Notes under the pieces: generated by a model
Told to the model about the DNA's origin: nothing
The model's input: the letters and a program-made list of their open reading frames with translations, nothing else
The model's database searches: none
Shown here: positions 13,403 through 36,960 of the stretch, piece by piece
Numbering within the stretch: the stretch's first letter is position 1
Layout of the letters: each line of letters starts with the position of its first letter
Origin: Gluconobacter cadivus
Lineage (GTDB): Bacteria; Pseudomonadota; Alphaproteobacteria; Acetobacterales; Acetobacteraceae
Assembly: GCF_015244745.1 (NCBI RefSeq)
Contig: NZ_JABCQI010000006.1
Location: 124,001 to 188,000, forward strand
Reading direction: 5' to 3'
Length of the DNA stretch: 64,000 nucleotides
Made by a program: the position numbers and the translations under genes

Positions 13403-13423
13403 GACACACCACCGACAAAAGAA

Positions 13424-14664: not shown

Positions 14665-15655
14665 TCGCGCCCTGCTCTGCGGCCTCGCAACGGCTGCCTT
14701 CCTCGCATTTCCCGCCCTCGCAGGTGCGGCCGACAACGGCACCATCATGCCGTCCACAAGCACTCTTCCTCCGCCAGCCCGGAGCGGAACGCTCGTCTCC
14801 ATGCCCAACCCGCCTGAACCAGGCGCGGATCAGGTCAACGCCAATGATGAGGCCCTGGGCAATCCGGCCAACACCCCGGTCACGGGCGCGCTTCAGCTCG
14901 ACCGCATCACAGGCGGCGAGGCCCCGCCGTCTCTTGAAGCCTTGCAGGACGCGCGGCCGAACGATGAAGCAGGCGATGACCTCAAGCCGGGCCGACGCGA
15001 GCAGATCCGGCAGGCTGCACTGACCTACGGCGCACAGGGCGGACAGGCCGCGCGGTCTTTCGCCATCAACGAAATGCTACGCCACAACGAGCCCATCCTC
15101 GACACGACGTTCGATTTCCGCCCCTTCGTCCTGCCGGTCGGTGATGGCCAGACGCTGATGCAGCCCCCTATCGTCAGTCAGGCGCAGATGGCCTTCGCTC
15201 TGAACGACACCGGCACCATCGCCCATGAAAGCCGCTGTGTCTTCGAGATTACCCGTGAGGCACAGCTCACCTCTGCCGCTCCGAACTGGCGCACCTATCT
15301 GGTCCGCTCCTGGAACAGGCCGCGTCATCCGGCCTCATCTGCTTTGCCACACACCGACAAGGAAGTGCGGCACTGGAACGACTGGGTGGCCGAAGGCTGG
15401 GCCTCCGGAGAAAAGGTAGCGGATGAGATCTACCTGGCCGATCTCTCGCGCCTTCAGCGCGACATCACCGGCATGGCCCGCTACCGCGTCCTTCTGCGGG
15501 CCGGTCGTGTCGAAGAGCCGCGCGTGGTGTTCGAGAACCGACAGGCCGTGGGCGGCGGGGACAGTCTGCATCTTGGCGACCGCGTGATCCGCATCACCGG
15601 GCAGCCTGGTCTTCAGGCCCGCAGCCGCGTTGCCTATCCGGAGGACTGCCGATGA
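14657..15655 (+). CDS. traI: TraI/DotC outer-membrane complex protein
   Basis: 332 aa with an N-terminal signal peptide (about residues 1-24). A lipobox Cys is absent (cleavage region A-L-A-G-A-A-D-N), unlike Legionella DotC, which is a lipoprotein. The mature protein has the DotC features R-E-Q-I-R-Q-A-A-L-T-Y-G-A-Q-G-G, P-I-L-D-T-T-F-D-F-R-P-F, and a late N-D-W-V-A-E-G-W-A-S-G block. It lies between DotD and DotB and overlaps traJ by 4 nt. Confidence 0.88.
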   Translation: MADRALLCGLATAAFLAFPALAGAADNGTIMPSTSTLPPPARSGTLVSMPNPPEPGADQVNANDEALGNPANTPVTGALQLDRITGGEAPPSLEALQDARPNDEAGDDLKPGRREQIRQAALTYGAQGGQAARSFAINEMLRHNEPILDTTFDFRPFVLPVGDGQTLMQPPIVSQAQMAFALNDTGTIAHESRCVFEITREAQLTSAAPNWRTYLVRSWNRPRHPASSALPHTDKEVRHWNDWVAEGWASGEKVADEIYLADLSRLQRDITGMARYRVLLRAGRVEEPRVVFENRQAVGGGDSLHLGDRVIRITGQPGLQARSRVAYPEDCR

Positions 15656-16818: not shown

Positions 16819-17066
16819 TGTGGCGCGCAACCGCACAACCTGTCCGTCTGGCTATCCTTGATGGCCGGGCCTGTCTCCCGCTCCTTGTAACGGTCACGTA
16901 CTGGAGCTGGACGACGCTGTATATCGGCGTTCTGGGCACCGCCCTGTTTGCAACGATCAGCTTCTTTGGTCTGACGCTGCCCGCTGCCCTCAGAACTGTC
17001 CGTCGCCTCATCACCGGCCCCGTCCGGTCCGGGCGGCCGACCTGGAAGCGGAGGCGCTACGGATGA
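16818..17066 (+). CDS. TraK/IcmT-like small membrane protein
   Basis: 82 aa, with one or two membrane segments in the middle (L-P-L-L-V-T-V-T-Y-W-S-W and L-G-T-A-L-F-A-T-I-S-F) and the IcmT-like F-F-G-L-T-L-P-A-A-L-R-T-V-R. Size (IcmT is 86 aa) and its place directly after DotB match icmT/traK. It overlaps neighbours on both sides by 1-4 nt. Confidence 0.75.
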   Translation: MWRATAQPVRLAILDGRACLPLLVTVTYWSWTTLYIGVLGTALFATISFFGLTLPAALRTVRRLITGPVRSGRPTWKRRRYG

Positions 17067-17482
17067 CCCCCTCTCCTGCCGTCACGCTCCTGTCGGACGT
17101 TCTGGTCCGGGCCATCGACCGCAAGGGCCTCGGCGTCATTCTGAGCGATGCCACCAACTCAACCCCCTGCGCCAGTACGGTCGCGGCGTCCAGCAGCGGT
17201 TTCCTGCCAGCGTTCCTGATTACTGCCGAGGCGCTCTGGTTTGAAATGACTCGGCACGGCTTTGGGTTGAAGCTGGTCGATGATCCTGAAGCCGCCCTCG
17301 GCGTGACCGTCCTCAACCATGACGCGCAGTCTGCCGTGACGGTCCTGCTCTGTCTGCTCGACGTGCTGGATGCCCTCCCGGTTCAGAACAGGCAGATCAA
17401 CCTGTGCGATCTGAACGGCCTCTGGCAGGCGAGCATGGCACGTCTTCAGCCGGTCTCCGTCCAGAAGGAGCAAGCCGCATGA
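17063..17482 (+). CDS. TraL/IcmS-position cytosolic protein
   Basis: 139 aa, soluble and mildly acidic, without signal or membrane segments. Hydrophobic helices such as V-T-V-L-L-C-L-L-D-V-L-D-A-L suggest a helical dimerisation surface. In I-type loci a small IcmS-like adaptor follows IcmT, so position suggests a coupling-complex chaperone. Sequence similarity to IcmS is not evident by eye, so the call is based mainly on synteny. It overlaps the transglycosylase gene by 4 nt. Confidence 0.5.
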   Translation: MTPSPAVTLLSDVLVRAIDRKGLGVILSDATNSTPCASTVAASSSGFLPAFLITAEALWFEMTRHGFGLKLVDDPEAALGVTVLNHDAQSAVTVLLCLLDVLDALPVQNRQINLCDLNGLWQASMARLQPVSVQKEQAA

Positions 17483-17976
17483 AAACCCGAGTTTTCTTTC
17501 CGTTGGCCCTCGCGGCCCTCATGGCAGCCCCGGCTGCCTTGGCCGAGGACGATGGCGGACGCCAGATCGCAGCCTGCCTCAAAGAGTCAGCCCATAACGC
17601 GCATGTGCCAGCAGGCGTCATGCTGGTCCTGCTCTATGTCGAAGGCGGTCATCCCGGACAGGCCGTGCAGAATACGAACGGGACGTCCGATCTCGGCCCC
17701 ATGCAGGTCAATACGATCCACGTCCCCGAGATTGCGCGGCACTGGCACACTACCCCGTCCCGTGCCTACGCGGCCTTGCGGAATAACTCCTGCGCCAATC
17801 TCGAAGCGGGCGGCTGGATCCTCGGGCAGGAAATGGCCAAGGCCCAAGGTGATCTCTGGCAGGCCGTCGCGGGCTATCACTCCCACACGCCCCGCTTTGG
17901 CACGGCCTATCTGAAGCGCTTTTACGAGATTTCCCAGACTCTGATCCGAACCAGCCATCAAGGAGACCCGGCATGA
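17479..17976 (+). CDS. VirB1-like lytic transglycosylase
   Basis: 165 aa from ATG 17479: a signal peptide (about 1-22, ends A-A-L-A-E), then an SLT domain with likely catalytic Glu in L-L-Y-V-E-G-G-H, the D-L-G-P-M-Q-V-N motif, a C-A-N-L-E-A-G-G-W-I-L block and V-A-G-Y-H-S-H-T-P. Such enzymes locally cut peptidoglycan so that the T4SS can span the periplasm. It sits inside the tra operon, overlapping both neighbours by 4 nt. A second transglycosylase gene lies at 29.8 kb. Confidence 0.88.
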   Translation: MKTRVFFPLALAALMAAPAALAEDDGGRQIAACLKESAHNAHVPAGVMLVLLYVEGGHPGQAVQNTNGTSDLGPMQVNTIHVPEIARHWHTTPSRAYAALRNNSCANLEAGGWILGQEMAKAQGDLWQAVAGYHSHTPRFGTAYLKRFYEISQTLIRTSHQGDPA

Positions 17977-19136
17977 GCGGCACAGCTTCGCGGTCCTCAG
18001 GCTCGCGCTCGTCAGGCGAGATTACCCTGATGCTGGCCGGTGTTGCGCTGCTCGGCAGCGTTGTCCTGGCCTATATGGTCTGGTCAACCTTCCACACCGA
18101 GATCAGCCGCTTTTACTGCAAGGCCCTGATCTGGCAGATCGGCATCCTGCCGCGCACGCCTGAGCTGGCGCGTCTGAATCTCCAGCTTCATCAGGCCCTG
18201 CACCATCCGGCGTCCATTCGCCTGATCCAGCTCTATTACGGCCTGTCCATCGTCGGTCTGCAGCTCCGGTGGGTTGCAGTCCTGGTCGGCGGGATCTGCG
18301 CAGGTCTGTGTCTCTTCTTCGGGGAGAACAAGGCGCTGCGGGCTGTCCTTGATCTCGAAGGCCTGATTGCCGTGCAGGCAAAAATGTTTCCGACCCTGCG
18401 CGGGTTCGCCAAGCGCCGCATCACCCGGCTGGTTGCGCCTTCTAACGGGGCACCTCTTCCGGCCGACCCGGCCCTGACGGCTGACGAATGGCGCAGCCGC
18501 TTTGCCACGGCCGCCGATGGTAGTTTCAGTGAGGTCTGCGCGCAGGAAGCCTTCGAGCGTCAGCTCGGCCCGCGCTACACAACGGCCGGTCCGGGCGCGG
18601 CCCCACCTGCGGCCCAGGTGCTCTTTGCGGCCTTTGCGCTGCACAAACTCAAGCGTCGCGATGAGGCCATGACCCTGCTCGGGCAACTGTCAGAAGGTCT
18701 GACTGACGCAGGACTTGATGGCGATACCGGCCCGAAGGTCAGCCTGAAGGTGCCCGCAGCGGTCCTGAAGAACGCGCAGGACTTCCTTGCAGATCCCGAT
18801 GTGCAGGCCACGATCGCGCAGAGCTGTAACCGTCACGGGTGGACCACGACCGCCCTTATGACGCTTCTGTGCGATGCCCGCTTTGAGGCTGGTGTGCTGG
18901 CGCCGCCCGCCTTCGCCATCATCAAGCTCATCGACCGGCCGCTTTGGTACGCCCTGCACTCTCTGGGCTACCCCAGTGAAAACCCGAACGAAGACGTGCA
19001 TCCCAATCCCCGGATCGAAGCCGCTGGCGCCCGTGCCCACTGGTCCGAGGAACAGCGTCTGCGTCGCCCCCTCTACATCCCGGTGCTTGATCGCGCCCTC
19101 TCCACGCTCCGCTCCACTTGGAAGACAGTTTCATGA
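17973..19136 (+). CDS. TrbA/DotM (IcmP) coupling-complex protein
   Basis: 387 aa with two N-terminal membrane regions (about 18-37 and 88-112) and a large cytosolic C-terminal domain, the DotM layout. The R-R-D-E-A-M-T-L-L and W-Y-A-L-H-S-L-G-Y-P-S-E-N blocks are typical. DotM partners the DotL coupling ATPase and helps recruit substrates. It lies two genes before dotL, as in IncI trbA-trbB-trbC. Confidence 0.85.
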   Translation: MSGTASRSSGSRSSGEITLMLAGVALLGSVVLAYMVWSTFHTEISRFYCKALIWQIGILPRTPELARLNLQLHQALHHPASIRLIQLYYGLSIVGLQLRWVAVLVGGICAGLCLFFGENKALRAVLDLEGLIAVQAKMFPTLRGFAKRRITRLVAPSNGAPLPADPALTADEWRSRFATAADGSFSEVCAQEAFERQLGPRYTTAGPGAAPPAAQVLFAAFALHKLKRRDEAMTLLGQLSEGLTDAGLDGDTGPKVSLKVPAAVLKNAQDFLADPDVQATIAQSCNRHGWTTTALMTLLCDARFEAGVLAPPAFAIIKLIDRPLWYALHSLGYPSENPNEDVHPNPRIEAAGARAHWSEEQRLRRPLYIPVLDRALSTLRSTWKTVS

Positions 19137-19577: not shown

Positions 19578-21893
19578 ATGACGGCTCGCAAGATTGGTGC
19601 CCCCCTTGGCCATCAGCAGGTCGAGCGGGGAAAGACATACCGCGATACCCGCCCGTTCTGGACGAAAACGAAGGAAGAGCTGCGTTCCCCTCTGGCCGGA
19701 TGGCTTGGCTTCGTCGGGGTCGGTCTGGGCTGGTTCGTGCCCGCGATAGATGGCGCGCTGATCCTCGCGGCCCCGGCCGTCGCGGCTTGGGTGGTCCTCC
19801 GTCCTGAGCGCCTCCCGCTCCACATGCCGCGTTACAGCGGGCTGAAGGATGCGAACGATCTCAATCCCAAAGATCGCAAGGCCCGTCAGGCCAACGGCAT
19901 TCTCTATCTCGGCACGGAAGCCCGCACCCGACGCCAGCTCTGGATGTCCTCTGACGCGGCCCGTCAGCACGCGGCCATTCCGGGCACCACCGGATCAGGC
20001 AAGACCACGGCCATTGTCTCCCTGATGACGAACGCCCTGGCCCATGGCTCCGGCTGCATCCTCGTGGACGCCAAGGGCGACAACACGGTCTACGGCGATG
20101 TGCTGGCCCTCGCAAGGCGGTTTGGGCTCGATGACCAGGTGCTGGCGCTGAACTTCCTCGCCGCCTCCGGCACCCGGGATTCCAACACCTTCAACCCGTT
20201 TGCCACCGGGAATGCGGACGCCATTCGCGAAATGCTGGTCAGCCAGCTTGGCGAACAGTCGGCCAATGATTCCAATGGCGTGTTCCGCGACCGCGCTGTC
20301 GGCCTCATCGGCACAGTGGTTCCGGCCCTCGTCTGGATGCGCGACACGCACGGCATCCCCATCAATATCGACGCCATCCGCTATGCGACCGACCTGCGCT
20401 GGATCGGCACCCTCGCCCGGCACAAGGTCTTCCTCATTCGCAATCCCGGTTCCAATCAGGCCATCGAGCGCAGGGTCGAGGATATTCCGGACGATGTGCT
20501 CTGGCCACTTCAGGCCTACCTCGGCGAGCTGCCCGGTTATGATTCCTCTCTGGAGTGGAACGCCCAGAAGGAAAATAGACCGTCCGAGCAGCACGGCTAT
20601 GCCAAGATGTATTTCTCGCGCGTCTTCACCCAGCTTGGCGTGAGTTTGGGGCATATCTTCAGTGCGGAGACGGCCGACATCATCATGCGCGATGTGGTCC
20701 TGAACCGCCGCATCCTGATCGTCATCCTGCCATCGCTGGAAAACTCATCAGACAGTCTGGCGGGCCTGGGCAAGATCGTCGTGGCCTCGCTGCGCGGCGT
20801 CATGGCCCAGCTTCTCGGGGCCAAGCTGCACGGCTCTGCCAGCGAAGTGTTCAAGCTGAAGGCCGGTGCCGGCGATGCGCCGTTCCAGATCTTCTTCGAT
20901 GAGTTGGCCGCCTATGTAACGGACGGCATGGACCGGATGCTCGCCATGGGCCGTGGCCTGAACTGCATGTTCTGGATCTCGTTTCAGGATCTGCCCGGCC
21001 TGACGGCCCGGATTGGCGAAAAGGCCTTCTCGCTTCTTGGCAATGCCAACCTTACCCATGCGCTCCGGCTTCAGGATGCCATGAAGACCCGTGAATGGCT
21101 GGAACAGCAGGCCGACAAGGTTGAGGTGACACAGGCCACCCGCGTGGAGAATGATGGCTACGGCTATTACAACGGCTCAGGGGCTGAGGTCCGCGAAGTT
21201 TCCCGTCTGCCCTGGAACGATTTGCAAAGCCTGATCGAAGGTGAGGCCGTGACGATGTTCGGCGGCCGCGTCATTCATTCCAAGACCTTCTTTGCCGACA
21301 TCAATGGACGCTCCGGCGAGGTCCGCCGCGCCCGTCCGGTCATGCTCCCCTCTCCCAAGTCCGGGCATGGTGTGGATCCGGACGCCGAGACATGGGGCAT
21401 TGTCGAAACGCTGGAGAATGGAGACTTCCAGATCGAGACCGGCAGCTCGAACCTCCCGCCAGAGGTCAAGGCCCTGATCGGCAAGATCGCGAATGAAAAC
21501 CATCGGGACAGCAAGGCCCTCATGGGCGATGTCAGTACGCACCTGACGGAAATCGCGTCTTACCTGCGGACGGCGACGACACAGGTACAGGCGGACGGAA
21601 GCACGCCGTTTGCCGGGATGCTGGCCTGGGGCCGCTTCCATCGCGACGATAACAAGGATGAAAGCCTTGTGCCTGCGCAGCCCATGGATGGGGCCTTTCT
21701 GGGGAAGGTCGAGCAACTGGAGCGCCTGGTTGGGAGCAGGACGGGGCGGACGCCTCGTCGTCGTGCTGTGCTGGTGCTGGCGACGCGCGATCAGATCAGG
21801 GTCCTTCCAGCCAATACGTCCGGAGCGAAGGGGGCGAACGAAAAAGAGATACTGGCATCTTTCCGCAAAATTGGGGAGCGCCTTCAGGCGTAA
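19578..21893 (+). CDS. TrbC/DotL (IcmO) type IV coupling ATPase
   Basis: 771 aa. Two hydrophobic segments near residues 38-77 are followed by Walker A G-T-T-G-S-G-K-T-T (about 135-143), Walker B-like I-F-F-D-E-L-A-A-Y (about 438) and the W-I-S-F-Q-D-L sensor region. DotL is the hexameric inner-membrane pump that brings relaxosome and protein substrates to the T4SS. The C-terminal about 150 residues are variable and probably bind adaptors. It is the last gene of the traH operon. Its pairing with a MobF relaxase at 22.8-26.0 kb is noted in the findings. Confidence 0.93.
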   Translation: MTARKIGAPLGHQQVERGKTYRDTRPFWTKTKEELRSPLAGWLGFVGVGLGWFVPAIDGALILAAPAVAAWVVLRPERLPLHMPRYSGLKDANDLNPKDRKARQANGILYLGTEARTRRQLWMSSDAARQHAAIPGTTGSGKTTAIVSLMTNALAHGSGCILVDAKGDNTVYGDVLALARRFGLDDQVLALNFLAASGTRDSNTFNPFATGNADAIREMLVSQLGEQSANDSNGVFRDRAVGLIGTVVPALVWMRDTHGIPINIDAIRYATDLRWIGTLARHKVFLIRNPGSNQAIERRVEDIPDDVLWPLQAYLGELPGYDSSLEWNAQKENRPSEQHGYAKMYFSRVFTQLGVSLGHIFSAETADIIMRDVVLNRRILIVILPSLENSSDSLAGLGKIVVASLRGVMAQLLGAKLHGSASEVFKLKAGAGDAPFQIFFDELAAYVTDGMDRMLAMGRGLNCMFWISFQDLPGLTARIGEKAFSLLGNANLTHALRLQDAMKTREWLEQQADKVEVTQATRVENDGYGYYNGSGAEVREVSRLPWNDLQSLIEGEAVTMFGGRVIHSKTFFADINGRSGEVRRARPVMLPSPKSGHGVDPDAETWGIVETLENGDFQIETGSSNLPPEVKALIGKIANENHRDSKALMGDVSTHLTEIASYLRTATTQVQADGSTPFAGMLAWGRFHRDDNKDESLVPAQPMDGAFLGKVEQLERLVGSRTGRTPRRRAVLVLATRDQIRVLPANTSGAKGANEKEILASFRKIGERLQA

Positions 21894-22844: not shown

Positions 22845-25800
22845 TTAGCCGGAAGGAGAGAGATGCTCCGAAAGCTTCATTACCCGTCTTGCGCGCAAGT
22901 CGCGCTCTTCTTGAGACGCAACAGAAGCACTGGCTGCCAGAAGCTCCTCAATCTGACGGTCAAGATCTTTCAGTCTCGGCCGCGCCGTCTTTTCTAAGGT
23001 AATCGCCTGAACCCGGTCCGCGACCTCGCGCCCGTAGTCCCGGCCCTCCTGCGCCATCTCCTCCTGCATCTTGCCGAGACGGATCAGTTCCTGAACGTGC
23101 TTCTCCCGTTCCTCCTGGGACGTAAAAGGCAGATCCATGCCAAGCGCCTTATAAGGCTTGTTGGACATGCCCTTGGCCACATGGTTCCACAGATCGTCAC
23201 TGGTGATCTCCGTCGTATCACCGAGCGCGCGCCCGTTGCGCACGGCCTCAAATGTCGCGCCGTCTGAGATCATGGTCCAGGTCGTGCCTTTGGCGCGGCT
23301 CTCCGCCACGTAGGACGTGAACCCGGTTGCCGTCGCGACACCTCGCGGGAGCGCGTTGATATGCTCGTCAGACGTGAGGCCCTGGGCGGCATCAATGGTC
23401 ATGGCATGACCGAAGCCAAGCAGGATCCGGCCGGTCTTGTGGTCCTTCAGCCGACGCCACTCAACATCTGCCTCCCGACCATCCTTCATCCGGACGCGCA
23501 GGCCGTCCTTGCCGTGCGAGACAACCTCCACGACATCGCCATTGTTGCCAACGGTGGTCCCTTTCCCTTCGACCGCCCCCCAGGTGCGCCGGAAAAGGCG
23601 CAGTCTGTCTCCGGCCGCCACCTGAAGCTCGTAGGCCTCGCCGCGCTGATCGACCGCATCGAGCTTGACCTCATCGCGGGAGATTTCGCCACGCTCCTGC
23701 AGGATCCTGCGCACGGCGCGGCTGAGATCGGCCGCGTCCTGATTGGTCAGGGCCGACATGCTGATGCCACGCGTTGAGCCGGACGCGGCCAGGGCGTCGC
23801 GGCGTGTGACATACAGCTCGGCAATCTGTTGCAGCACTTCGTCCTGGTCGCCGCCGACCAATCGGATCGTGCCATCCTCACGCTTCATGTCGATCGCACG
23901 GCGCACCTCTTCGAGGTGAAAGGCGTTGCGGGGATCGTCCGAGTTCTCCTCGTCCCGGTTGGCGTAGGCGGCCTTCCCTTTGGGTCGAAGCGCTTCCAGC
24001 GCATCCGCACTCGGCTTCTCGCCACGAAACAGTCCGGCAATCTCACGATTGCGGGCGGTCGTCTGGCGGACCGTGGAGAGCAGCTCCGGCATGTCCTCCT
24101 TGGCCAGAACCCTGCGCAGGATCTCGACGGTATCACCGGCCTCAATGGACTGTGCCTGCTCCCGATCACCCAAGGCCTTGATGGTACAGCCGCTCGCGCG
24201 TTGCAGCTCCAGAAGCTGAAGCATCTGGCGCGGTGCGATCTGCCCGACCTCGTCAATGACCAGCACCGTGTTCTCGTCCACCGTCTGCTCGCCTTTCTCC
24301 AGGCGGCTCAGGAACGGCATCATGGCGTAGCGCTGATGAATGCCGGCATCGCCAAGCGCATCGGCCTGACGCCAGGCCGTCGCAAGGCCGATCATCTCAC
24401 GGCCCTTCTCCGAAAACCGGGTATCGCGCTTCCAGGCATCCACAAGCGGCTTAAGCAGCGTTGTCTTACCGGAGCCGGCAACGCCCGTGAGCATCGAGAT
24501 CTTTCCGGCCTTCCCCAGGGCATAGATTGCCGCCTTCTGGGATTGGCCGTGCTCGTTGTCAAAATCGAGGTCGCAGCGCTCGATGGCCTCTGTGAGTTGG
24601 GCATCCGAAAGGGAAGCGCTGCGATCCGCCGAGGCCCTTACGGCTTCTTTGGCGAGCGTCTCTTCGACCCGGATCTGGGCCGTATTGGTCACGCGGACCC
24701 GATCATTCTTCATGCAGGACACGAGGCTGACCTGCTCGCCCCGGACCTCAAGCCCCTTGTCCTCGATCAGTTTGACGACCTGGTCAATGTCCTCAATGCC
24801 ACCTGAGATCCCCGCACCGATGAGGCCGCGTGCCGCGTACATCCGCAGTTTGTCGTGATCGAGCACGGCAGCCGTCTCGAACTCCTTGCCGAGATGCTTG
24901 GCCGCAAACGCATAGGCCTGCTCGTGTCGCTCCGCGACCGAGAGTGCAGGAGCTTCGGCTGTATCGAGAACGCTGTGATGCTCCCACCCGATCTCGGCGG
25001 CGCGCTCGCGCCAGGCCTGAACGTCGTCGGCGGATTCATTCTTCTTCTGCCGGTGCGCCAGACTGGCGGCCTTGAGCATCTTGTTCTTCAGCTCGGCGGT
25101 CATGGCGTTCCAGTCATGACCTTCTTTCTCGGCATAGGCTCGCGCGGCCCGCGTCACCTCGGCCGTGCGGCTGGAGAAGGCGTCACAGGCCTCCTGCGGA
25201 ACAGCGGAAATAACAGTCGCCTGCTCTTTGGCGTCGTAGGACTGCGCAATCCCGAGTTTGCGCAGCTCATCCGCCAGCTCCGCCTGGAAGAAGGCTCCGA
25301 ACTCGTGGACGCGGGACCGCAGGCGCTTCGTGTCCAGCGAGCCTACATGGCCGCTGTCGGTGACAACGACATTGTAGAGCGAATTATGGATGTGCATCTG
25401 CGGATCGCCCCCGGTCGGAGCCTCGCGCAGGTAGGTTGTATCGGTCTCGGCATCATGCAGGGTCAGGGTCGGTCGAGACGTGCGGTGCCGGTAGGACGTC
25501 CAGGCGACTTCCCCGGCCTCTTCTCCGTCTTCCCCACCATGGCCGCGTCGGGCAAAGCCCAGCTCACGGGCCACATACTGCATGGTCGCGTCGTTGGCCC
25601 GCTGCACTGCGTTCCAGATCGCGGCTCCTTCGGCCTGTGTTGGCGCAAACTCGGCAGCCAGAGTGACCGATTTGTGCGGGGCCATGGTCAGGTCGTAGGC
25701 GCTGATCTTCCGCTTGGCCTGAGACCATTGCTCGCCATTGTCGGCGCGCTTGCCTTCGAACAGGGCCGCAAGTGTTTCGGTCGTCGGCATGGCCCGCCGA

Positions 25801-26021
25801 TCCACGCCAAGCACATCGGCCATCTTCTGACTCATGCCCGGATTGAACGACGCCCTGCCATCCCGGCCGAGGTAGTAGTTCGTGAGGCGCTGACCGTCGC
25901 CGTCAGGCACCTTGCCGGTATCCGTGCGAAAATCGTGCTCCGGATCCGGCGCGCCCTCGGTGAAGTAGGCGGCGACGAACCGGCCGTTGCACTCCGCCGA
26001 GATCTTGCGGAAGGTCATCAT
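22845..26021 (-). CDS. MobF-family (TrwC/TraI-type) conjugative relaxase-helicase
   Basis: 1058 aa. The N-terminal relaxase domain has candidate catalytic Tyr19 and the Tyr49-Tyr50 pair (N-Y-Y-L-G-R-D-G), a Y-D-L-T-M-A-P-H-K-S-V-T block and the metal-binding P-Q-M-H-I-H-N. The helicase half carries Walker A G-V-A-G-S-G-K-T-T (about 508-517) and V-L-V-I-D-E-V-G-Q. The C-terminal 120 residues are helical. The enzyme nicks oriT, stays bound to the 5' end and unwinds the strand. It is transcribed away from the putative oriT at 27.3 kb and overlaps the small upstream gene by 4 nt. I-type systems more often use MobP relaxases. Confidence 0.93.
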   Translation of the reverse strand: MMTFRKISAECNGRFVAAYFTEGAPDPEHDFRTDTGKVPDGDGQRLTNYYLGRDGRASFNPGMSQKMADVLGVDRRAMPTTETLAALFEGKRADNGEQWSQAKRKISAYDLTMAPHKSVTLAAEFAPTQAEGAAIWNAVQRANDATMQYVARELGFARRGHGGEDGEEAGEVAWTSYRHRTSRPTLTLHDAETDTTYLREAPTGGDPQMHIHNSLYNVVVTDSGHVGSLDTKRLRSRVHEFGAFFQAELADELRKLGIAQSYDAKEQATVISAVPQEACDAFSSRTAEVTRAARAYAEKEGHDWNAMTAELKNKMLKAASLAHRQKKNESADDVQAWRERAAEIGWEHHSVLDTAEAPALSVAERHEQAYAFAAKHLGKEFETAAVLDHDKLRMYAARGLIGAGISGGIEDIDQVVKLIEDKGLEVRGEQVSLVSCMKNDRVRVTNTAQIRVEETLAKEAVRASADRSASLSDAQLTEAIERCDLDFDNEHGQSQKAAIYALGKAGKISMLTGVAGSGKTTLLKPLVDAWKRDTRFSEKGREMIGLATAWRQADALGDAGIHQRYAMMPFLSRLEKGEQTVDENTVLVIDEVGQIAPRQMLQLLELQRASGCTIKALGDREQAQSIEAGDTVEILRRVLAKEDMPELLSTVRQTTARNREIAGLFRGEKPSADALEALRPKGKAAYANRDEENSDDPRNAFHLEEVRRAIDMKREDGTIRLVGGDQDEVLQQIAELYVTRRDALAASGSTRGISMSALTNQDAADLSRAVRRILQERGEISRDEVKLDAVDQRGEAYELQVAAGDRLRLFRRTWGAVEGKGTTVGNNGDVVEVVSHGKDGLRVRMKDGREADVEWRRLKDHKTGRILLGFGHAMTIDAAQGLTSDEHINALPRGVATATGFTSYVAESRAKGTTWTMISDGATFEAVRNGRALGDTTEITSDDLWNHVAKGMSNKPYKALGMDLPFTSQEEREKHVQELIRLGKMQEEMAQEGRDYGREVADRVQAITLEKTARPRLKDLDRQIEELLAASASVASQEERDLRARRVMKLSEHLSPSG

Positions 26022-26344
26022 GACGGGCGGCCGTCCTCTGCTTTCGTGCGAACCTTGCGGCCTTCAAGCAGGTCATTGTTGCGGGCGGTCGTATGGTCGA
26101 TGCGCCTGATGACCGGCTCCTGATCCTTCATCAGCTCGACCAGGCGCGCGAGAATGTCGTCCAGTGTCGGGCCGTCCCCCTTCTCCGAGGGGGTCAGAAG
26201 CTCAATGAGGATACTCAGCTTTTCGCTGATGAACCGGATCTCTTCCCCCTGCTCGTCAGAGCGGGTGATGAGATGCTGAAGAAGCTCCCGGTCCGTAATA
26301 TCGGTCTCGGGAGCGCGGTCGGGGGTCTGGGTCTGATCTGTCAT
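26018..26344 (-). CDS. Small helical protein upstream of the relaxase (possible relaxosome accessory)
   Basis: 108 aa from ATG 26344 (M-T-D-Q-T-Q-T-P); a further in-frame ATG at 26368 is possible but overlaps the regulatory motif. The middle is amphipathic helix (I-S-E-K-L-S-I-L-I-E-L-L, then L-D-D-I-L-A-R-L-V-E-L-M) and the tail is basic. Its stop overlaps the relaxase start (ATGA). Position and helical make-up suggest an accessory mobilisation or adaptor protein; no family was recognised. Confidence 0.6.
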   Translation of the reverse strand: MTDQTQTPDRAPETDITDRELLQHLITRSDEQGEEIRFISEKLSILIELLTPSEKGDGPTLDDILARLVELMKDQEPVIRRIDHTTARNNDLLEGRKVRTKAEDGRPS

Positions 26345-26364
26345 GCTGGCAGGATAGAAAGCCC

Positions 26365-26380
26365 TCATGCGACTGAGATC
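26365..26380 (-). promoter_or_regulatory. AGTCGCA motif ahead of the relaxase operon
   Basis: Minus-strand ATCTCAGTCGCATGAG, AGTC at 26374, only 30 nt before the chosen start at 26344. This close spacing is shared with the site at 31427 and argues against the motif being a -35 element. Confidence 0.5.
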
Positions 26381-27137
26381 ATTTCGTCAAAGCGTCAGGC
26401 CGTTCCCTCTCCTTCTGTGCGGTTGTTGCCGCCTGCATGACCCATTGCGCTAGTCGAGTGCTCAGAGAGATGGCCTGATCAAGCTGTTGGCCGCAGGAAT
26501 TTTCGGTCACGGCCTTGTTCATGATGACGTCCTCGGTTCGGAAGTTTCGCCACAGGGATCCGACCAGTTGAGCAGAACTCACCAACGCCTGCACATCGGC
26601 CTGATCAACCTCGACAAGAATTTCTTCCAGATCTCGCGCTTCGATGTGAAGAGGCCGCCCCGGCAGGTTCAGAACCATATACCGGCCTGGCAGTCGGAGC
26701 CTCTCTCGAAGCCGCATCATCTCGGCTCCCTCAACACCGGCCTGAGAACGGTCTTTGCCGAGGTAGGAACCTGTCTCGAAAACTTCCGGCAAGACCGCGT
26801 CTGTAACCCATCGACGAAAGGCCTTTGCGTGAGGACAGCGAGAAACAAAGGTGAGGTGAAGGGCACCGCTTCTGCTAACCGCGTTGACCGTCTGCAAACC
26901 TCCATGGGTCATCATCTTCATTGAAGTGTGCTCGTCATCATCCAGCCGCAGCATCGCATCGCGTGAATTCGAGAGCCCCAGTACCATGCAAACCTGGCTA
27001 GCACGGAGCCATAGTTTTCCTTCGTGAACCACGCCCTCCAAACAGTGGTTTTGAAACATAAACTCGGTGGTACGGGCAGCATCATGAACTGCCTCTGCGG
27101 CGACAGCTCCCGCTTCGGTATCCCTGTCCTTGGTCAT
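26379..27137 (-). CDS. Bro-N (BRO/antirepressor N-domain) protein
   Basis: 252 aa. Residues about 25-125 match the Bro-N pattern: F-M-F-Q-N-H-C-L-E-G-V-V, L-W-L-R-A-S-Q-V-C-M-V-L-G-L-S-N, L-D-D-D-E-H-T-S, V-S-R-S-G-A-L-H-L, and A-F-R-R-W-V-T-D-A-V-L-P-E-V. Bro-N domains are common in phage antirepressors and are thought to bind DNA. The C-terminal half is unrecognised. Its leader (about 103 bp) is a near-copy, inverted, of the leader of the stbB-like gene, so the two are probably co-regulated. It lies next to oriT, so a relaxosome or regulatory role is possible. Confidence 0.8.
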   Translation of the reverse strand: MTKDRDTEAGAVAAEAVHDAARTTEFMFQNHCLEGVVHEGKLWLRASQVCMVLGLSNSRDAMLRLDDDEHTSMKMMTHGGLQTVNAVSRSGALHLTFVSRCPHAKAFRRWVTDAVLPEVFETGSYLGKDRSQAGVEGAEMMRLRERLRLPGRYMVLNLPGRPLHIEARDLEEILVEVDQADVQALVSSAQLVGSLWRNFRTEDVIMNKAVTENSCGQQLDQAISLSTRLAQWVMQAATTAQKERERPDALTK

Positions 27138-27229
27138 GGATGGTCGGCTCCTGATGAGGCAGCCCCCTCACTGTGAGGTAGGCTTCTCTTCCTCTTTCGG
27201 CCGCCATCGTGCTGGGTCTTTATGCGACT
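27127..27229 (-). repeat. 103-bp leader, copy 1 (inverted partner at 28164-28266)
   Basis: On the minus strand it runs from AGTCGCATA through GAAAGAGGAAGAGAAGCC, CTCACAGTGAG and CTGCCTCATCAGGAGCC to the first codons ATGACCAAGGA of the Bro-N gene. By eye it differs from copy 2 at about 9 positions with no gap, and the motif-to-ATG distance is 92 nt in both. The SD AGGAG can pair with GGCTGCCT, and CTCAC/GTGAG form an alternative hairpin. Confidence 0.8.
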
Positions 27230-27271
27230 GAGATGCCTGAAATAGACGGCCTCTCGCGCTCTGGGAGCAGC

Positions 27272-27350
27272 AAAGGGCGTCGTTAGTTCCGACGCCCTTT
27301 CAAGCCCGCACGGCGCATCCGCCCGCACCAACGGTGCAATGGTCTATGAA
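27272..27350 (+). other. oriT: Putative oriT: inverted repeats and R388-like nic site
   Basis: An 11-bp inverted repeat AAAGGGCGTCG / CGACGCCCTTT (27272-27282, 27290-27300) is followed by hairpin GCACC-AAC-GGTGC (27325-27337) and then AATGGTCT^ATGAAG. R388 oriT has the TrwC-binding hairpin GCACC-GAAA-GGTGC followed by GTATTGTCT^ATAGCC (known from the relaxase literature). The predicted nick is between 27345 and 27346 on the plus strand. The site lies between the MobF relaxase operon and an stb-like operon, as in R388. The 11-bp repeat alone could instead be a bidirectional terminator. Confidence 0.68.
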
Positions 27351-27365
27351 GAAGCTCTTTTCTTT

Positions 27366-27496
27366 GCCTCATAGTTGCCTCGTCAATTCTCAATCCCGCC
27401 TTGCAGTCGCCTCGTACTAGCCTCGAAATGGCTTCGGAGACGCCTCGTAGATGCCTCCATGATGCCTCGAACTTGACACGGAGATGCCTCGCCTGC
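27366..27496 (+). repeat. Twelve-unit 11-bp iteron array
   Basis: Units start at 27366, 27377, 27387, 27398, 27409, 27420, 27431, 27442, 27453, 27464, 27475 and 27486. All steps are 11 bp except one of 10. Consensus is GCCTCGTAGAT; the first five bases are the most constant (GCCTC in 8 units; TTCTC, GCCTT, GCTTC and GACAC in the others). Spacing of one helical turn fits a ParR- or StbA-type binding array; R388 stbDRs also have an 11-bp period. The array begins 20 nt after the predicted nick and lies upstream of the stbA-like gene. Confidence 0.8.
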
Positions 27497-27547
27497 GAAA
27501 GAGGTCCGACGCACCAGAGGCCGTGAAAACGGTTCAGAGTGCGAGGT

Positions 27548-27564
27548 GTGTCCAGAACGGACAC
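27548..27564. promoter_or_regulatory. GTGTCC-N5-GGACAC operator-like palindrome
   Basis: GTGTCC-AGAAC-GGACAC lies 22 nt upstream of the stbA-like start at 27586. The same half-sites with 5-bp spacing occur at 1670-1686 and 29670-29686. This is probably an autoregulatory operator; the cognate protein is unknown. Confidence 0.5.
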
Positions 27565-27585
27565 AAAGCGGGGGCGAAAGTGATC

Positions 27586-28140
27586 ATGTCCAAGGCACTG
27601 AGAGAGATTCAGGAGGCACACAAGACACGCCCTGCTCAACCGCACTCGAAAGCCGTCTATCAGTGGCTCAGAAAAAATCAGGACATCGTGTCTGAACTTC
27701 GCGAGGCGAAAATCGCCACCTGGGAGATGATCGCCGAAGCCGCGAAAAAGGATGGTGTGGAGGTCGAACTCTCTCCGGTTGGACTTGGGGCCATCAGAAA
27801 AATGTGGTCACGCCTCAAGAGCGAGCGAGAGAAAATCACAGTCGGAAAACCGGCAAACGACGCACCCGATCAGACGCCAGAACCGCCGAGCCGAACCCCG
27901 GCAGACTGGCGGCCTGCCGCTGTGGAAGAGTATTACGCGGAACGTGAGGAAAGACCCGTCGCGCCGCCACCTGCCGCCACGCCACAGGTGCCCGCCATTT
28001 CGGCCGCCGTAACGTCACCGTCCTCCAGAAACGCGGACCCGCATACGAACATTTCTGCTGAGGGTCGCCAGTCTCTGGAACACATCCGGGCAAAGCTCCG
28101 GGCGCGCAGAGAAGAGAAAAGAAGGCTCACGCCAGACTGA
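27586..28140 (+). CDS. StbA-like DNA-binding protein (putative)
   Basis: 184 aa from ATG 27586, chosen so that the palindrome lies upstream; an in-frame ATG at 27484 would add 34 residues and overlap the last iteron. The N-terminal 80 residues look like a helix-turn-helix domain (Y-Q-W-L-R-K-N-Q-D-I-V, I-A-T-W-E-M-I-A-E-A-A-K-K-D-G-V, L-G-A-I-R-K-M-W). The rest is Pro-rich and disordered, ending in a basic helix. Adjacency to the iterons and to stbB/stbC-like genes suggests the array-binding protein for plasmid stability or transfer. The name is inferred from context. Confidence 0.55.
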   Translation: MSKALREIQEAHKTRPAQPHSKAVYQWLRKNQDIVSELREAKIATWEMIAEAAKKDGVEVELSPVGLGAIRKMWSRLKSEREKITVGKPANDAPDQTPEPPSRTPADWRPAAVEEYYAEREERPVAPPPAATPQVPAISAAVTSPSSRNADPHTNISAEGRQSLEHIRAKLRARREEKRRLTPD

Positions 28141-28163
28141 TTTTTTTCTGAGCGGCGGAGTTA

Positions 28164-28266
28164 AGTCGCAGAATGGCCCGGCACTATGGCGTCTGAAAGA
28201 GGAAGAGAAGCCCATCTCACAGTGAGGGGGCTGCCTCATCAGGAGCCGACCATCCATGACCAAGGA
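28164..28266 (+). repeat. 103-bp leader, copy 2 (ahead of the stbB-like gene)
   Basis: Near-identical inverted partner of 27127-27229. It starts with AGTCGCAGA at 28164 and ends in the first 11 bases of the stbB-like gene (ATG 28256). It contains a short open frame M-A-S-E-R-G-R-E-A that is also open, with two changes, in copy 1. RBS AGGAG is within a potential hairpin. Confidence 0.8.
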
Positions 28267-29101
28267 TATTGCCGCCAAAGCCCCCACAGGCGCTGCCGAC
28301 CAGAAGGCAGCCGCCCCCAAGCGCAAGCCGGTTATTTTTACGATCATTGGCCGTCAGCGGGTCGGGAAGACGACCCTGCTTAATGCTCTCGCCCAGACAA
28401 TCCACGAGCAGGGCGGCACACCCGAAATCTGGAACACCGATCTGCTGAACCGGTCGCACTCCATTTCCAGTTTCCATGATGCGAAAAGCCCCACAGGCGG
28501 TGACACGAAACGTCAGCGGAAATGGCTGGAAGAAAAGATCCAGTCTCTCATGGAAAGTCGCCATGACGCCATTCTCGACATCGGCGGCGGATGGACAGCG
28601 CTGCATGAGTTAATCAGCACGGAATCACTGACACGCGCCCTCGACATGATGGGCATCACGCTCTCAGTGGCGTTCCTCATCGGCCATGAACGCGCAGATC
28701 TCGATTATCTGGAAGACCTCCAAACCAACAAGAAGTTCTCTCCCCGGAACGCCGCAGTCATTCTCAACGAAGGCCTTATTCCTCCTTCCCTGGACGTGGA
28801 TGACGTCTTTGAAGAGGTTGCCATTCACCCTGCGGTTGTCGAAGCCATGGACAACGGCGCAAAGCTCGTCCTCTATCCGGCTGCCGAGCCCATGAAAGAC
28901 GTCTGTGACCGAACGCTCACATTCCGCGCCTATGCCGAGGGCGAACAAAAGGACGGGTTCCCGACCACCTCAATCTTTGACCGGCTCGCGATTGACCGTT
29001 GGTACCGCCGTGACTTCCCGGTCTTCCTGCGGGAGCTAGGCGAGCCTCGTCTGCCGAATATGCCTAAGGGCCTCCCTGTTCCGGCCGAAAGTGACGTGTA
29101 A
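28256..29101 (+). CDS. StbB/TraL-like P-loop ATPase
   Basis: 281 aa. Walker A-type G-R-Q-R-V-G-K-T-T-L is at about residues 31-40. The Walker B-like D-A-I-L-D-I-G-G-G follows at about 100-108. It lacks the deviant K-G-G-x-G-K of classic ParA. P-loop proteins of this size in an A-B-C set beside oriT occur in R388 (StbB) and RP4 (TraL). R388 StbB influences plasmid positioning and conjugation. It overlaps the next gene by 1 nt (TAATG). Confidence 0.7.
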   Translation: MTKDIAAKAPTGAADQKAAAPKRKPVIFTIIGRQRVGKTTLLNALAQTIHEQGGTPEIWNTDLLNRSHSISSFHDAKSPTGGDTKRQRKWLEEKIQSLMESRHDAILDIGGGWTALHELISTESLTRALDMMGITLSVAFLIGHERADLDYLEDLQTNKKFSPRNAAVILNEGLIPPSLDVDDVFEEVAIHPAVVEAMDNGAKLVLYPAAEPMKDVCDRTLTFRAYAEGEQKDGFPTTSIFDRLAIDRWYRRDFPVFLRELGEPRLPNMPKGLPVPAESDV

Positions 29102-29667
29102 TGTCTGACGGCCTTACCCAGAGGATTTCCGACTGTCAGGCCAGATTTGAAAGCTCACTGGATGCGCTCCGTGAGCAGACGCATCGGTGGACGCTTCGGC
29201 CGCGTTCACCTGAGGCCAAGGTTCTGGATGGCCTCATGATTCTGATGGAGATGAACAATCTTCATCAGGCCCTCCTCCTCAAGGATCGCGAACACTCTGA
29301 AGCAGCGCACAGAGCGCTGTTTCAGGAGGCCGAGAAGCGGATGGAGCAGTGTGTCGCGAAGTGTGAAAGCCTGCTGGATCAATGCACACGCTCGGCAACG
29401 GAGGAGGTAATTGAGGTCAGGCGTGCTCTTCATGAAGGCGTGGCAGCCTCTCGCCAGCTTCAGAAGATTGACGAAAAGACCGTCAAGGCAAAGGTCGCGG
29501 AAGTCCTTGGTACGGTCAAAGGCGAAATCGCCGAGAGCATGAAGGCCCAGATCGTGATGGCGGGCACCCGGGTTCGAAGGGACGAAATCAGCAAGCGGGC
29601 CGGATGGTTCGCCACCATGATCGTCGGGGGAACCGTCTTCGGAATTATCCTCGATCACCTCATTTAG
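29101..29667 (+). CDS. StbC/TraM-like coiled-coil protein with C-terminal membrane anchor
   Basis: 188 aa. A long helical, Gln/Glu/Arg-rich region (about 10-155) is followed by one C-terminal membrane segment (W-F-A-T-M-I-V-G-G-T-V-F-G-I-I-L). Third gene of the stb-like set. RP4 TraM has a comparable position and a similar helix-plus-anchor build. A membrane-tethered partner of the P-loop ATPase is the natural inference. A 10-bp-arm palindrome starts at its stop codon. Confidence 0.65.
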   Translation: MSDGLTQRISDCQARFESSLDALREQTHRWTLRPRSPEAKVLDGLMILMEMNNLHQALLLKDREHSEAAHRALFQEAEKRMEQCVAKCESLLDQCTRSATEEVIEVRRALHEGVAASRQLQKIDEKTVKAKVAEVLGTVKGEIAESMKAQIVMAGTRVRRDEISKRAGWFATMIVGGTVFGIILDHLI

Positions 29668-31523: not shown

Positions 31524-31739
31524 ATGAGTTCAGCCAAAACCCTCTTCGCTCCGACGCCTTTTTCCGCTCTTTCGGATGAAGAGCGCGCGCGCCGCCAGGA
31601 CGCGGTCGAGTGGACTCTCGCGGCCCAGAGACGGCAGGGCTACACGCATGATCCCCTTATCGAGGATGCCTGCCAGTCGTTCGTTGCGGGGCAGATCGAC
31701 CTTGCTGAACTGGGGCGGAGACTGAATCCCGCCCTCTGA
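31524..31739 (+). CDS. VbhA-like Fic antitoxin with altered inhibitory motif
   Basis: 71 aa from ATG 31524. Residues about 20-68 follow the antitoxin_VbhA pattern (R-A-R-R-Q-D-A-V-E-W-T-L-A-A-Q-R-R-Q-G, then F-V-A-G-Q-I-D). In Bartonella VbhA the inhibitory helix reads S-Q-R-L-E-G. Here the aligned stretch is A-Q-R-R-Q-G, so both the Ser and the inhibitory Glu are replaced. The gene sits 7 nt before the Fic gene. A role as dedicated inhibitor is likely, but the mechanism must differ from the canonical Glu finger. Confidence 0.75.
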   Translation: MSSAKTLFAPTPFSALSDEERARRQDAVEWTLAAQRRQGYTHDPLIEDACQSFVAGQIDLAELGRRLNPAL

Positions 31740-31746
31740 CGCGTCG

Positions 31747-33222
31747 ATGCCTCCCGTCCACGGTTACACCTACCCGAACGTCTGCGACGATCCGGACCAG
31801 ACAGACGTCCTGCGGAACCGGATCGGCCTTCGCCGCCATTCCGAACTTCACCCTGAAGAATACCGCCGCACCAGCCACAGGATTCTGGAAATCCGGCTTG
31901 GAATGGGGCCATCCGGCTCTTTCGATGCCGACCACCTGAAGGCCATTCATCGGCATATCTTTCAGGACGTCTATGAATGGGCGGGCCACATGCGCCACGA
32001 AAGGCCGGTCGTGGACGGGGCACGGGTCGAACCGATCGGCTCCATGCGGAAAGGGTCAACAACCTTCCTGCCCGGCTCCCACATCGACATGGGGCTGACC
32101 GAGGCCTTCAAGCCCATCCGCGACCCGGACGTCCTGAAGACCTCCACGCCGGAGCAGTTTGCGGCCATCGCCGGCAAGGTTCTGAACGAACTCAATTACG
32201 TCCACCCGTTCCGGGAAGGCAACGGCAGAACGCAGGAGGCGTTTGTCGCGGAACTCGGCCGACACTACGGGCATAATGTGGACCTCTCCGTCATCACGAG
32301 ATCTCGGATGGTCTCCGCGTCCATTGCCGGCACGCAGGATCCGGACCATCCGGCCATGGCGGCCCTGCTGACGGACGCCAGTTCGCCCGCCCGCACCCGT
32401 GCTCTTAAGGAGCTGATGCAGGACATGGGCTCCGGTCCTGCCGCAAGGCCGCTGGATGACCTCGTCATCCGCACGGCCGCGCCTGGGGAAACTGTCTCGG
32501 GGATCTTCAAAACACGAACCAGCTTATCCGGTGCGTTTGAAACGCCTGACGGGATCGTGGCGGTGCCTGTCGCGGATCTGCGAAACGCTGTCCGAATGGA
32601 CGGCGGGTACACCATCACCGTGCAGTCGGATTTTTTGACGGCCTCTGCTGCTCCGATGCTTCGGCCCGTACCGCGTCCGGTCGTCCCGGCTGTCTTCGGG
32701 CCTGCGGAAGAGAAGCGCGAAAACGCGCTCCTGGCACAGGCCAAGGAAGAAGGCCTTAAGGCCGCCGCCTCTCTTCATGCGTTCTGGTCGGCCCCGCCTT
32801 CCCTCGTCTGCCGCGACATCGAGGCCGCTATCCGCCAGGAGGGCGGCGATGCAGCACAGGCCTTTACCGGCATGAAGGCCGGAGGCCGTCATGCGGCGCT
32901 CGGGAAAAAGATCGAAAAGGAACTGCGCCACAATCCGACCTTCGCGCGCGAGCTGGGCAAGGTGCAGAAGGACATGGCAGCCTATGGCGACAGTCGGGGA
33001 AAGGCCTTTGCGTTTGGGGCCGCTCACGGTCGGGAAACAGAAATCCTGACAGACCTGGCCGGGACGGATCGGGAGATCGCCCGCCATGCCAGCCGGACTC
33101 CCACTTCTGAACCGGGCCGCGCCCTGATTCAGACCCTGACCGGCCAGCCCGCCCTAACCGCCACAACGGACCCGGCAGACCGCCCGTCTCTTTCGTCTGC
33201 CCAAACACCCGGCCCCGGCTGA
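31747..33222 (+). CDS. Fic-domain toxin/effector with C-terminal BID-like region (VbhT-like)
   Basis: 491 aa. The Fic domain (about 20-215) has the core H153-P-F-R-E-G-N-G-R161-T-Q-E164. The canonical motif ends in Arg, so the second nucleotide-phosphate-binding Arg is Glu here. A middle OB/linker region follows, then a helical C-terminal region (about 330-460) that resembles BID secretion signals of Bep/VbhT proteins by helix pattern. VbhT-type proteins pass through conjugation systems and AMPylate targets such as gyrase. The BID call is tentative. The plus-strand gene faces the minus-strand leading region. Confidence 0.75.
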   Translation: MPPVHGYTYPNVCDDPDQTDVLRNRIGLRRHSELHPEEYRRTSHRILEIRLGMGPSGSFDADHLKAIHRHIFQDVYEWAGHMRHERPVVDGARVEPIGSMRKGSTTFLPGSHIDMGLTEAFKPIRDPDVLKTSTPEQFAAIAGKVLNELNYVHPFREGNGRTQEAFVAELGRHYGHNVDLSVITRSRMVSASIAGTQDPDHPAMAALLTDASSPARTRALKELMQDMGSGPAARPLDDLVIRTAAPGETVSGIFKTRTSLSGAFETPDGIVAVPVADLRNAVRMDGGYTITVQSDFLTASAAPMLRPVPRPVVPAVFGPAEEKRENALLAQAKEEGLKAAASLHAFWSAPPSLVCRDIEAAIRQEGGDAAQAFTGMKAGGRHAALGKKIEKELRHNPTFARELGKVQKDMAAYGDSRGKAFAFGAAHGRETEILTDLAGTDREIARHASRTPTSEPGRALIQTLTGQPALTATTDPADRPSLSSAQTPGPG

Positions 33223-36465: not shown

Positions 36466-36960
36466 TCAAAATGGAATTTCGTCATCGAGGTCGTTCCCGC
36501 CCGGTGCGTCCCAGCCCGCATTGCGGTTTCCGTTGCCAGACGATCCCCCAGACCGGCCGCCACCGTTTCCACCAGCAAAGCCGGCATCGCCCTCATCGCC
36601 ATTGCCTCGGTTGCTGTCGATCAGCACCAGCTCACCCCGGAAACGGTCAACGACGACCTCTGTGGTGTAGTGCTCCTGACCACCCTGATCGGTCCATTTG
36701 CGGGTGCGGAGTTCGCCTTCGATATAGACCTTGCGGCCTTTGCGGAGGAACCGCTCCGCCACGTCACCAGCCCGCTCATTGAAGATGACGACACGGTGCC
36801 ATTCGGTACGCTCACGGCGCTCCCCGCTCTGCCGGTCGTTCCAGGTGTCGGACGTGGCCAGAGGGAAACTCACGATCTTGGACCCGGACTGCGTATTGCG
36901 GACTTCCGGGTCTTTACCAAGGTTGCCAACGAGAATGACTTTGTTAACAGAACCGGCCAT
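36466..36960 (-). CDS. ssb: Single-stranded DNA-binding protein (SSB)
   Basis: 164 aa from ATG 36960 (GGAGG 6 nt upstream). The OB fold spans about 3-110 with V-N-K-V-I-L-V-G-N-L-G-K-D-P-E, W-H-R-V-V-I-F-N and Y-I-E-G-E-L-R-T-R-K-W. A Gly/Asn-rich linker follows, then the conserved acidic tip D-D-E-I-P-F. Plasmid SSBs coat entering DNA and can dampen SOS and some defences in the recipient. It lies downstream of repeat C with an AT-rich promoter-like stretch (37020-37140). First gene of a small operon. Confidence 0.95.
   Translation of the reverse strand: MAGSVNKVILVGNLGKDPEVRNTQSGSKIVSFPLATSDTWNDRQSGERRERTEWHRVVIFNERAGDVAERFLRKGRKVYIEGELRTRKWTDQGGQEHYTTEVVVDRFRGELVLIDSNRGNGDEGDAGFAGGNGGGRSGGSSGNGNRNAGWDAPGGNDLDDEIPF

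Follow-up and report, generated by a model that had tools for sequence, protein, structure and literature searches.

Gene organisation at the putative origin of transfer

The intergenic region described here is located in a window of 64,000 nucleotides (the whole stretch of Gluconobacter cadivus DNA that was analysed), within a contig of 246,895 bases. Over positions 26700-28200 the window has the same sequence as pGS1191_1, a circular plasmid of Gluconobacter albidus, and over 27346-52000 the identity is 99.9%. This plasmid is typed in PLSDB as conjugative, MOBF and MPF_I. The region holding the oriT candidate is flanked by two divergent gene groups, of which the first genes lie at 26379-27137 (minus strand) and 27586-28140 (plus strand).

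On the left is a gene encoding a MobF/TrwC relaxase-helicase (22845-26021, minus strand), predicted to nick at 27345^27346. Domain searches identified Pfam TrwC (PF08751, 7e-45), NCBIfam MobF (NF041492, 9e-49, above cut-off) and AAA_30 (5e-28), in agreement with the MobF/TrwC-type relaxase named in a preliminary description of this DNA; the protein has the N-terminal TrwC/MobF relaxase domain and the C-terminal SF1 helicase part of a MOBF relaxase. Its YRHRTSR and DPQMHIHN motifs align with FRHETSR and DPQLHTHA of TrwC, Y50 aligns with a TrwC tyrosine, and Y19 is, by eye, the candidate first tyrosine. We take the aligned residues to be the histidine triad and N-terminal tyrosines of a MOBF relaxase. 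Directly before the relaxase gene we noticed a gene for a small protein with no family match (26018-26368, minus strand), preceded by a gene encoding a Bro-N domain protein (26379-27137, minus strand; PF02498, 2e-14), the first on the relaxase side. Kozakia has a BRO family protein at the equivalent place, and we infer that the Bro-N protein is a candidate accessory factor. Further to the left, on the plus strand, domain searches and annotation placed a type IV coupling protein (19578-21893) and the IncI/Dot-Icm (MPF_I) secretion genes (5013-19136), encoding DotH/IcmK, T4SS TraI, a T2SSE ATPase, DotM and SLT, as the MPF_I typing of the matching plasmid indicates. In R388, by contrast, TrwA adjoins the oriT and the channel is MPF_T.

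On the right, three plus-strand genes are divergent from the relaxase genes and have period-11 direct repeats in front of them. The first, predicted to lead into the recipient, encodes an StbA-like putative DNA-binding protein of 184 amino acids (27586-28140; CDS annotated in NZ_CP014690). The second, at the place of StbB, encodes a P-loop protein (GRQRVGKT; 28256-29101) with no sequence match to R388 StbB, and the third, at the place of StbC (29101-29667; annotation and translation), a protein with a C-terminal membrane helix as judged by eye. A segment of 80 bp immediately upstream of the Bro-N gene (27150-27229) recurs inverted, at 89% identity, just upstream of the StbB-place gene (28164-28243), an arrangement present also in two related genomes; the pair is perhaps one operator or promoter governing both oriT sides. 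Just after the operon, positions 31524-33222 encode a Fic-domain protein with a small VbhA-family antitoxin gene.

Between the two gene groups the elements follow one another, from left to right, as an inverted repeat, a short stem, a hairpin, a nic segment and a repeat array. The inverted repeat (27272-27300) is a perfect 11-bp repeat with a 7-nt loop, reads AAAGGG...CCCTTT and folds with a z of -7.0 against shuffles; it is probably the outer inverted repeat of the oriT. The short stem GGCG-CATC-CGCC (27312-27323) stands immediately before the hairpin, and a similar GGCGG...CCGCC stem was found in several relatives. The hairpin GCACC-AAC-GGTGC (27325-27337, plus strand) consists of GCACC (27325-27329), the loop AAC (27330-27332) and the nick-side arm GGTGC (27333-27337), and is the predicted binding site of the relaxase. 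It is followed by the nic segment AATGGTCT^ATGA (27338-27349, plus strand), composed of AATGGTCT (27338-27345) and ATGA (27346-27349), with the predicted nick at 27345^27346. Direct repeats of period 11, GCCTCGTAGAT-like, fill 27365-27491 (plus strand) and are probable binding sites of the neighbouring StbA-like protein. The preliminary description had reported the hairpin and the nic-like segment, with coordinates that were right on direct reading; its spacing of 8 nt holds from the hairpin to the nick and not from the hairpin to the start of GGTCT. The inverted repeat and the period-11 array were absent from it.

Comparison with the oriT of plasmid R388

In the same orientation R388 reads GCACC-GAAA-GGTGC-GTATTGTCT^ATAG, with 9 nt from hairpin to nick, and the comparison drawn earlier (GCACC-GAAA-GGTGC, nick nine bases on) agrees with this sequence. 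The window shares with R388 the 5-bp core stem GCACC/GGTGC, a TCT^A nic on the corresponding strand, an inverted repeat that shortly precedes the nic hairpin, the same orientation to the relaxase gene and period-11 repeats ahead of a divergent three-gene operon; the R388-like place between relaxase and stb-like genes, likewise claimed at the outset, was found again. The two differ in the loop (AAC in the window, GAAA in R388), in the distance to the nick (8 versus 9 nt) and in the nic sequence (GGTCT^ATGA versus TGTCT^ATAG). An R388-type oriT is marked by an inverted repeat whose nick-proximal arm is conserved on the strand predicted to be nicked, and by a pyrimidine^purine step at a fixed 8-9 nt. 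Both marks are present, the latter as T^A at 8 nt in the window.

In the portion of the TrwC map used here, the essential parts are the proximal arm and the sequence from there to the nick, with a purine needed after the nick, while the loop is free and the distal arm tolerant (PMC4176350). The natural variation among relatives of the window element, in which the nick-side arm is conserved and the loop free, appears to resemble this map, part of the nic being fixed by our search patterns. The window is not identical to R388 over bases 12-25, which were found essential for TrwC, the spacer being 8 rather than 9 nt and several spacer bases differing. TrwC is also reported, in the portion of the source used, to be active on an oriT in which no R388 nic can be recognised (PMC4853378), hence sequence likeness is no safe guide to cutting.

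The hairpin and nic segment are conserved upstream of related relaxase genes

Taken by itself the hairpin is without significance. The exact hairpin and nic patterns occur once in the window and in 0 of 100 shuffles; the loose class (any 5-bp hairpin with a loop of 3-4, 8-9 nt before TCT^A) is at least as frequent as chance predicts, with 2 in the window versus 1.5 expected after block shuffling, and the 29-nt piece by itself folds no better than shuffles (z -0.78). The significance of the element thus derives from comparison with relatives, not from its rarity in the window.

Positions 27150-27500 (351 bases) found matches in 11 of 26 Gluconobacter genomes, the genome itself included, and in 8 of these 11 the best match was a short piece around the hairpin with different flanks. 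We then compared 59 regions upstream of MobF genes, 47-96% identical to the window relaxase over the matched part and drawn from the best listed matches among 149 matching genomes; a sixtieth fetched piece (L141), from the far side of a relaxase, was excluded. The nic motif GGTSTATG was present in 31 of the 59, and a looser nic pattern detected 15 of the remaining 28, versus none of the 28 with the reversed pattern. This comparison, akin to the check suggested in the preliminary description, therefore yielded a hairpin-nic element in 46 of the 59 regions, and all 46 are on the strand predicted from the window; the 59 sequences are related to each other and the counts are not independent. An initial search with the R388-like TCTA after the hairpin gave 3 of 30 loci (1.5-kb flanks), closest relatives only, and a scan of genome contigs matched only two very close relatives. 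Matches of the TCTA search in L042 and L048 were spurious.

No hairpin-nic element was found with these patterns in the other 13 of the 59 regions (L082-L084, L102, L111, L116, L122, L125-L129 and L134). Three of them are shorter than 1.5 kb and ten span 5.7-6.1 kb, two of the ten lying beside relaxases 67% identical. Because ten of the 13 are long, part of the family is without a detectable element near the relaxase gene; in these members the oriT may lie elsewhere, be of another kind or be too divergent for the pattern.

The spacing of 8 nt from hairpin to nick is fixed in the relatives, the T/C before and the A after the nick being set by the search pattern. These data bear on the position of the cut, which might be sought elsewhere within a correctly identified oriT, near the inverted repeat at 27272-27300 or within the period-11 array, given that the nick is placed by analogy with R388 only and that the long inverted repeat is the strongest structure. 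However, the stretch common to relatives whose flanks otherwise differ is the hairpin plus nic segment, kept at its fixed 8-nt spacing, and its T-A step agrees with the TCT^A of R388; we hold a cut outside this segment to be improbable. The fixed strand bears in addition on a role of the hairpins as transcription terminators or regulatory structures between the divergent operons, to which the AAAGGG...CCCTTT repeat at 27272-27300 lends itself. The annotated genes on either side point away, however, and such a role offers no reason to keep a nic-like segment 8 nt off on one fixed strand relative to the relaxase, which leaves this explanation barely credible.

The variable base of GGTST correlates with the relaxase. 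It is C in all nine cis copies beside relaxases 94-100% identical to that of the window and G in all 30 cis copies beside relaxases 51-67% identical. One region of the looser set (L123) has GGTCC beside a 54% identical relaxase, indicating that the link is not strict, and it may reflect descent as much as specificity.

Base pairing of the stem is retained in relatives

In some relatives the stem changes in step on both sides, as GCATC/GATGC in Kozakia and others and as GCAAAC/GTTTGC (including GCAAA/TTTGC), and some relatives have a GCACCC/GGGTGC stem with a GAAA-like loop, as in R388. Of 38 distinct cases, 27 have the complement of their own 3' arm 3-9 nt upstream of it, compared with 2 of 76 for other arm types, and in the six cis regions whose arm departs from GGTGC the partner arm matches every time. 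A nic-anchored pattern gave 89 distinct hits. The full set of 5 pairs is present in 47 of them (1.9% after shuffling) and at least 4 pairs in 74 (20.5% after shuffling), leaving 15 with fewer than 4.

To align the cores, we started from 57 whose lag-11 score exceeded that of other lags, left out three with longer hairpins (L103, L130 and L132) and one identical to the window, and added the window; the resulting 54 rows still include one probable chance hit (L187). In this alignment 92.6% of stem cells are paired, versus 16-49% for slid structures. Only 3 cells are changed on both sides, a number of such pairs reached by 11 of 500 shuffles, and the structure slid by -2 has 12 two-sided-change cells, though only 49% of its cells are paired. 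Together these comparisons suggest that the pairing of the stem is well kept and that covariation is present but thin.

Period-11 repeats and the stb-like operon

The array at 27365-27491 has a lag-11 identity of 0.54, which none of 5000 shuffles reaches and which is the maximum of the window (plus-strand scan in steps of 5). Among lags of 6-16 the best is 11 in 35 of 38 distinct relatives, while the repeat unit varies (GCCTCG, GCCGTG, GGGAGCG, GGTCGTG and others). The R388 leading region, as described in the portion of the source used, contains two sets of five 9-bp repeats with 2-bp spacing around the stbABC promoter, which are bound by StbA, a protein with roles both in stability and in transfer (PMC3098194). 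The window operon resembles stbABC and its stbDRs in its leading-region position, its three genes, the 9+2 = 11 bp repeats near the stbA promoter, a first protein that is DNA-binding or likely so and a second with a P-loop. It differs in that the repeat sequence is unrelated, similarity to StbA is hinted at only and no similarity to StbB was found; moreover, stb is described in the same portion of that source as biased to MPF_T plasmids (PMC3098194), whereas the window plasmid is MPF_I.

The relation to the Stb proteins was followed at several levels. The stb-like proteins had no BLASTP match to R388 StbA or StbB, and a PDB sequence search with the StbA-like alignment likewise gave none. Comparison by hhalign of the StbA-like family with the R388 StbA set gave a probability of 26% and a single-pair E of 7e-4; for the StbB-place protein and R388 StbB the probability was 2% and the E 0.023, with the P-loop alone in common. 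As the StbB comparison is taken as negative at this E, the value for StbA is modest. Foldseek with the low-confidence StbA-like model returned nothing with E < 0.001 and did not list StbA. In a structural re-ranking of 14 rows with this model (pLDDT 61), the R388 StbA domain 7pc1 was second (Z 5.4, rmsd 5.3, 72 aligned); an unrelated plant domain scored 5.8, rows within 1 are tied and a Z below 8 may mean a common arrangement. Given the Foldseek outcome, the plant domain and the tied rows, the Z of 5.4 is only a hint. We regarded a Pfam match to Sf6 terminase (E 0.004, below cut-off) as non-specific. The sequence and model comparisons thus hint at a link of the first protein to StbA, and the operon is better said to work like an stb system than to be one. 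The term "stb-like" used in the preliminary description is apt for position and layout, with StbA hinted at by protein comparison only, and is not supported for StbB (no BLASTP match, hhalign 2%).

Period-11 repeats preceding genes of putative DNA-binding and P-loop proteins, and the activity of R388 StbA in both stability and transfer (reported in part of PMC3098194), would also fit a partition centromere (par site) serving the stb-like operon, with the hairpin incidental. Against this, the hairpin-nic element is better conserved than the repeat units, and it occurs also away from a close mobF, for example in L144, L145 and L151, with no stb-like gene picked up adjacent. We consider a par site with an incidental hairpin highly improbable; oriT and partition functions can share one region.

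Predicted nicking and direction of transfer

We conclude that 27272-27500 is very probably the origin of transfer of a Gluconobacter conjugative plasmid with a MOBF relaxase, with its predicted nick at 27345^27346 and the stb-like operon on the leading side. According to this model, the relaxase encoded at 22845-26021 would recognise the GGTGC arm and AATGGTCT, cut the plus strand at 27345^27346 and remain attached to the 5' end. The plus strand would be moved 5' to 3' through the IncI/Dot-Icm-type channel. The stb-like operon would enter first and the relaxase and secretion genes last, and the period-11 repeats between nic and operon would probably be bound by the adjacent StbA-like protein, as the stbDRs are by StbA in R388.

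The portion of PMC3098194 used states that the relaxase stays on the 5' end in this enzyme class. With the plus strand cut at 27345^27346, the right-hand side is therefore predicted to enter first. The secretion genes (DotH/IcmK, TraI, DotM, ATPase), the coupling protein and the relaxase are all left of the predicted nick, on the last-transferred side. In the predicted leading region, about 9 kb from the nick, is a gene for a single-stranded DNA-binding protein (36466-36960, minus strand). By hand count, 27 of 30 annotated genes at ~33.4-57.0 kb (positions mapped from pGS1191_1, with offsets of a few up to some tens of bases beyond ~44.6 kb) are on the minus strand, for which the predicted transferred strand is the template. 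Gene layout and predicted direction make a good fit, which is not a proof. The direction proposed in the preliminary description (27.35 kb onward first, if the plus strand is nicked) is consistent with secretion genes last and the single-stranded DNA-binding protein leading. The predicted leading region also encodes an Abi_2 family protein (41072-41734), possibly a phage-exclusion gene.

This would provide a concrete origin of transfer and entry direction for plasmids of industrially used acetic acid bacteria, and would link a relaxase and oriT of TrwC type with an IncI/Dot-Icm-type channel. The oriT is of a known kind. In searches of the open-access literature we found no described MOBF oriT of acetic acid bacteria and, within the same scope, no description of this oriT family, of the pairing of MOBF with an IncI-type channel or of the spread of the solitary and paired copies described below; neither Gluconobacter nor Acetobacter is mentioned in the main text of the oriTDB article (PMC11701681).

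Copies of the element away from a close mobF

Among 394 family genomes, 52 contain the pattern TGCAWTGGTSTATG, at 98 places in all; the reversed control was found at 4 places. Adding 14 further places and subtracting 12 likely chance hits gave a tally of 100 copies. The 12 dropped places, in 11 genomes, comprise nine without a stem, two with 4 pairs (L231 and L232) and one with a long stem without period 11 (L176); five tallied places (L149, L170, L214 and two in L215) are also without a stem found by the script. Thirty-nine copies lie upstream of a close mobF at a distance of no more than 6.5 kb, and one (G321:C7) is 11.4 kb upstream of a mobF with which it shares a contig; every one of these 40 has the expected orientation. 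The other 60 are on contigs without a mobF among the matches listed; the contigs are often fragments, and other relaxases can be present, as shown by a MOBQ TraA-type gene on the G007 contig.

Eighteen of the 61 copies not in close cis are in nine genomes absent from the close-mobF list. Three of these (G010, G013 and G014) have no mobF match at all, G007 has a match of 49% on another contig, G155, G365 and G389 have matches of 38-42%, G192 has only a weak match and G314 is not among the listed matches. G014 carries one copy on the chromosome and one on a plasmid of 30,193 bases (Swingsia samuiensis NZ_CP038142), which is typed non-mobilizable and in which the stem of the copy is imperfect. 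Two contigs (L146, 1937-2778; L154, 7075-7916) have an oriT-like copy together with an StbA-like gene and no mobF match, an arrangement that is perhaps a minimal mobilisation cassette.

Other copies come in pairs. Five convergent pairs in Acetobacteraceae are 199-478 bp apart (L142, L167, L168, L198 and L199) and a sixth is ~960 bp apart (L192). One copy has GGTCT and the other GGTGT in the pairs of L168 and L199, and a divergent pair in G007 has two different repeat types, GCCTCG and GCCGTG. Among solitary and paired copies with an arm other than GGTGC, five were compared by eye and only one (L177) has the matching partner arm, so some copies may be relics.

By analogy, the solitary and paired copies suggest mobilisation in trans. 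They recall the oriT mimics of relaxase-less Staphylococcus aureus plasmids, which, in the portions of the two reports used, are likewise oriT copies on DNA without the relaxase of the plasmid concerned and likewise have accessory-site subtypes that differ (PMC8136818, PMC4652767); hosts and transfer system are different, and close convergent pairs are seen here. We see an even chance that a single MOBF oriT signal is in common use among acetic acid bacteria and their relatives. Conjugative MOBF/MPF_I plasmids would supply the relaxase in trans, and the nic hairpin would be carried by many further plasmids and by some segments of chromosomes, either on its own, accompanied by an StbA-like gene, or as a convergent pair whose nic bases or accessory repeats differ. 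If so, carriers could be moved by two or more different helpers, or depart in either direction. The element would then be a short signature for recognising DNA that may be mobilised in trans, including the one plasmid typed non-mobilizable.

Two further observations concern individual copies. Between the convergent copies of L167 is a short open frame (1489-1943) that resembles, by eye, a VbhA-type antitoxin. The chromosomal hairpin-nic copy of G014 (L151, ~8115-8140) has to its left an integrase-like frame resembling the one to the left of the plasmid copy.
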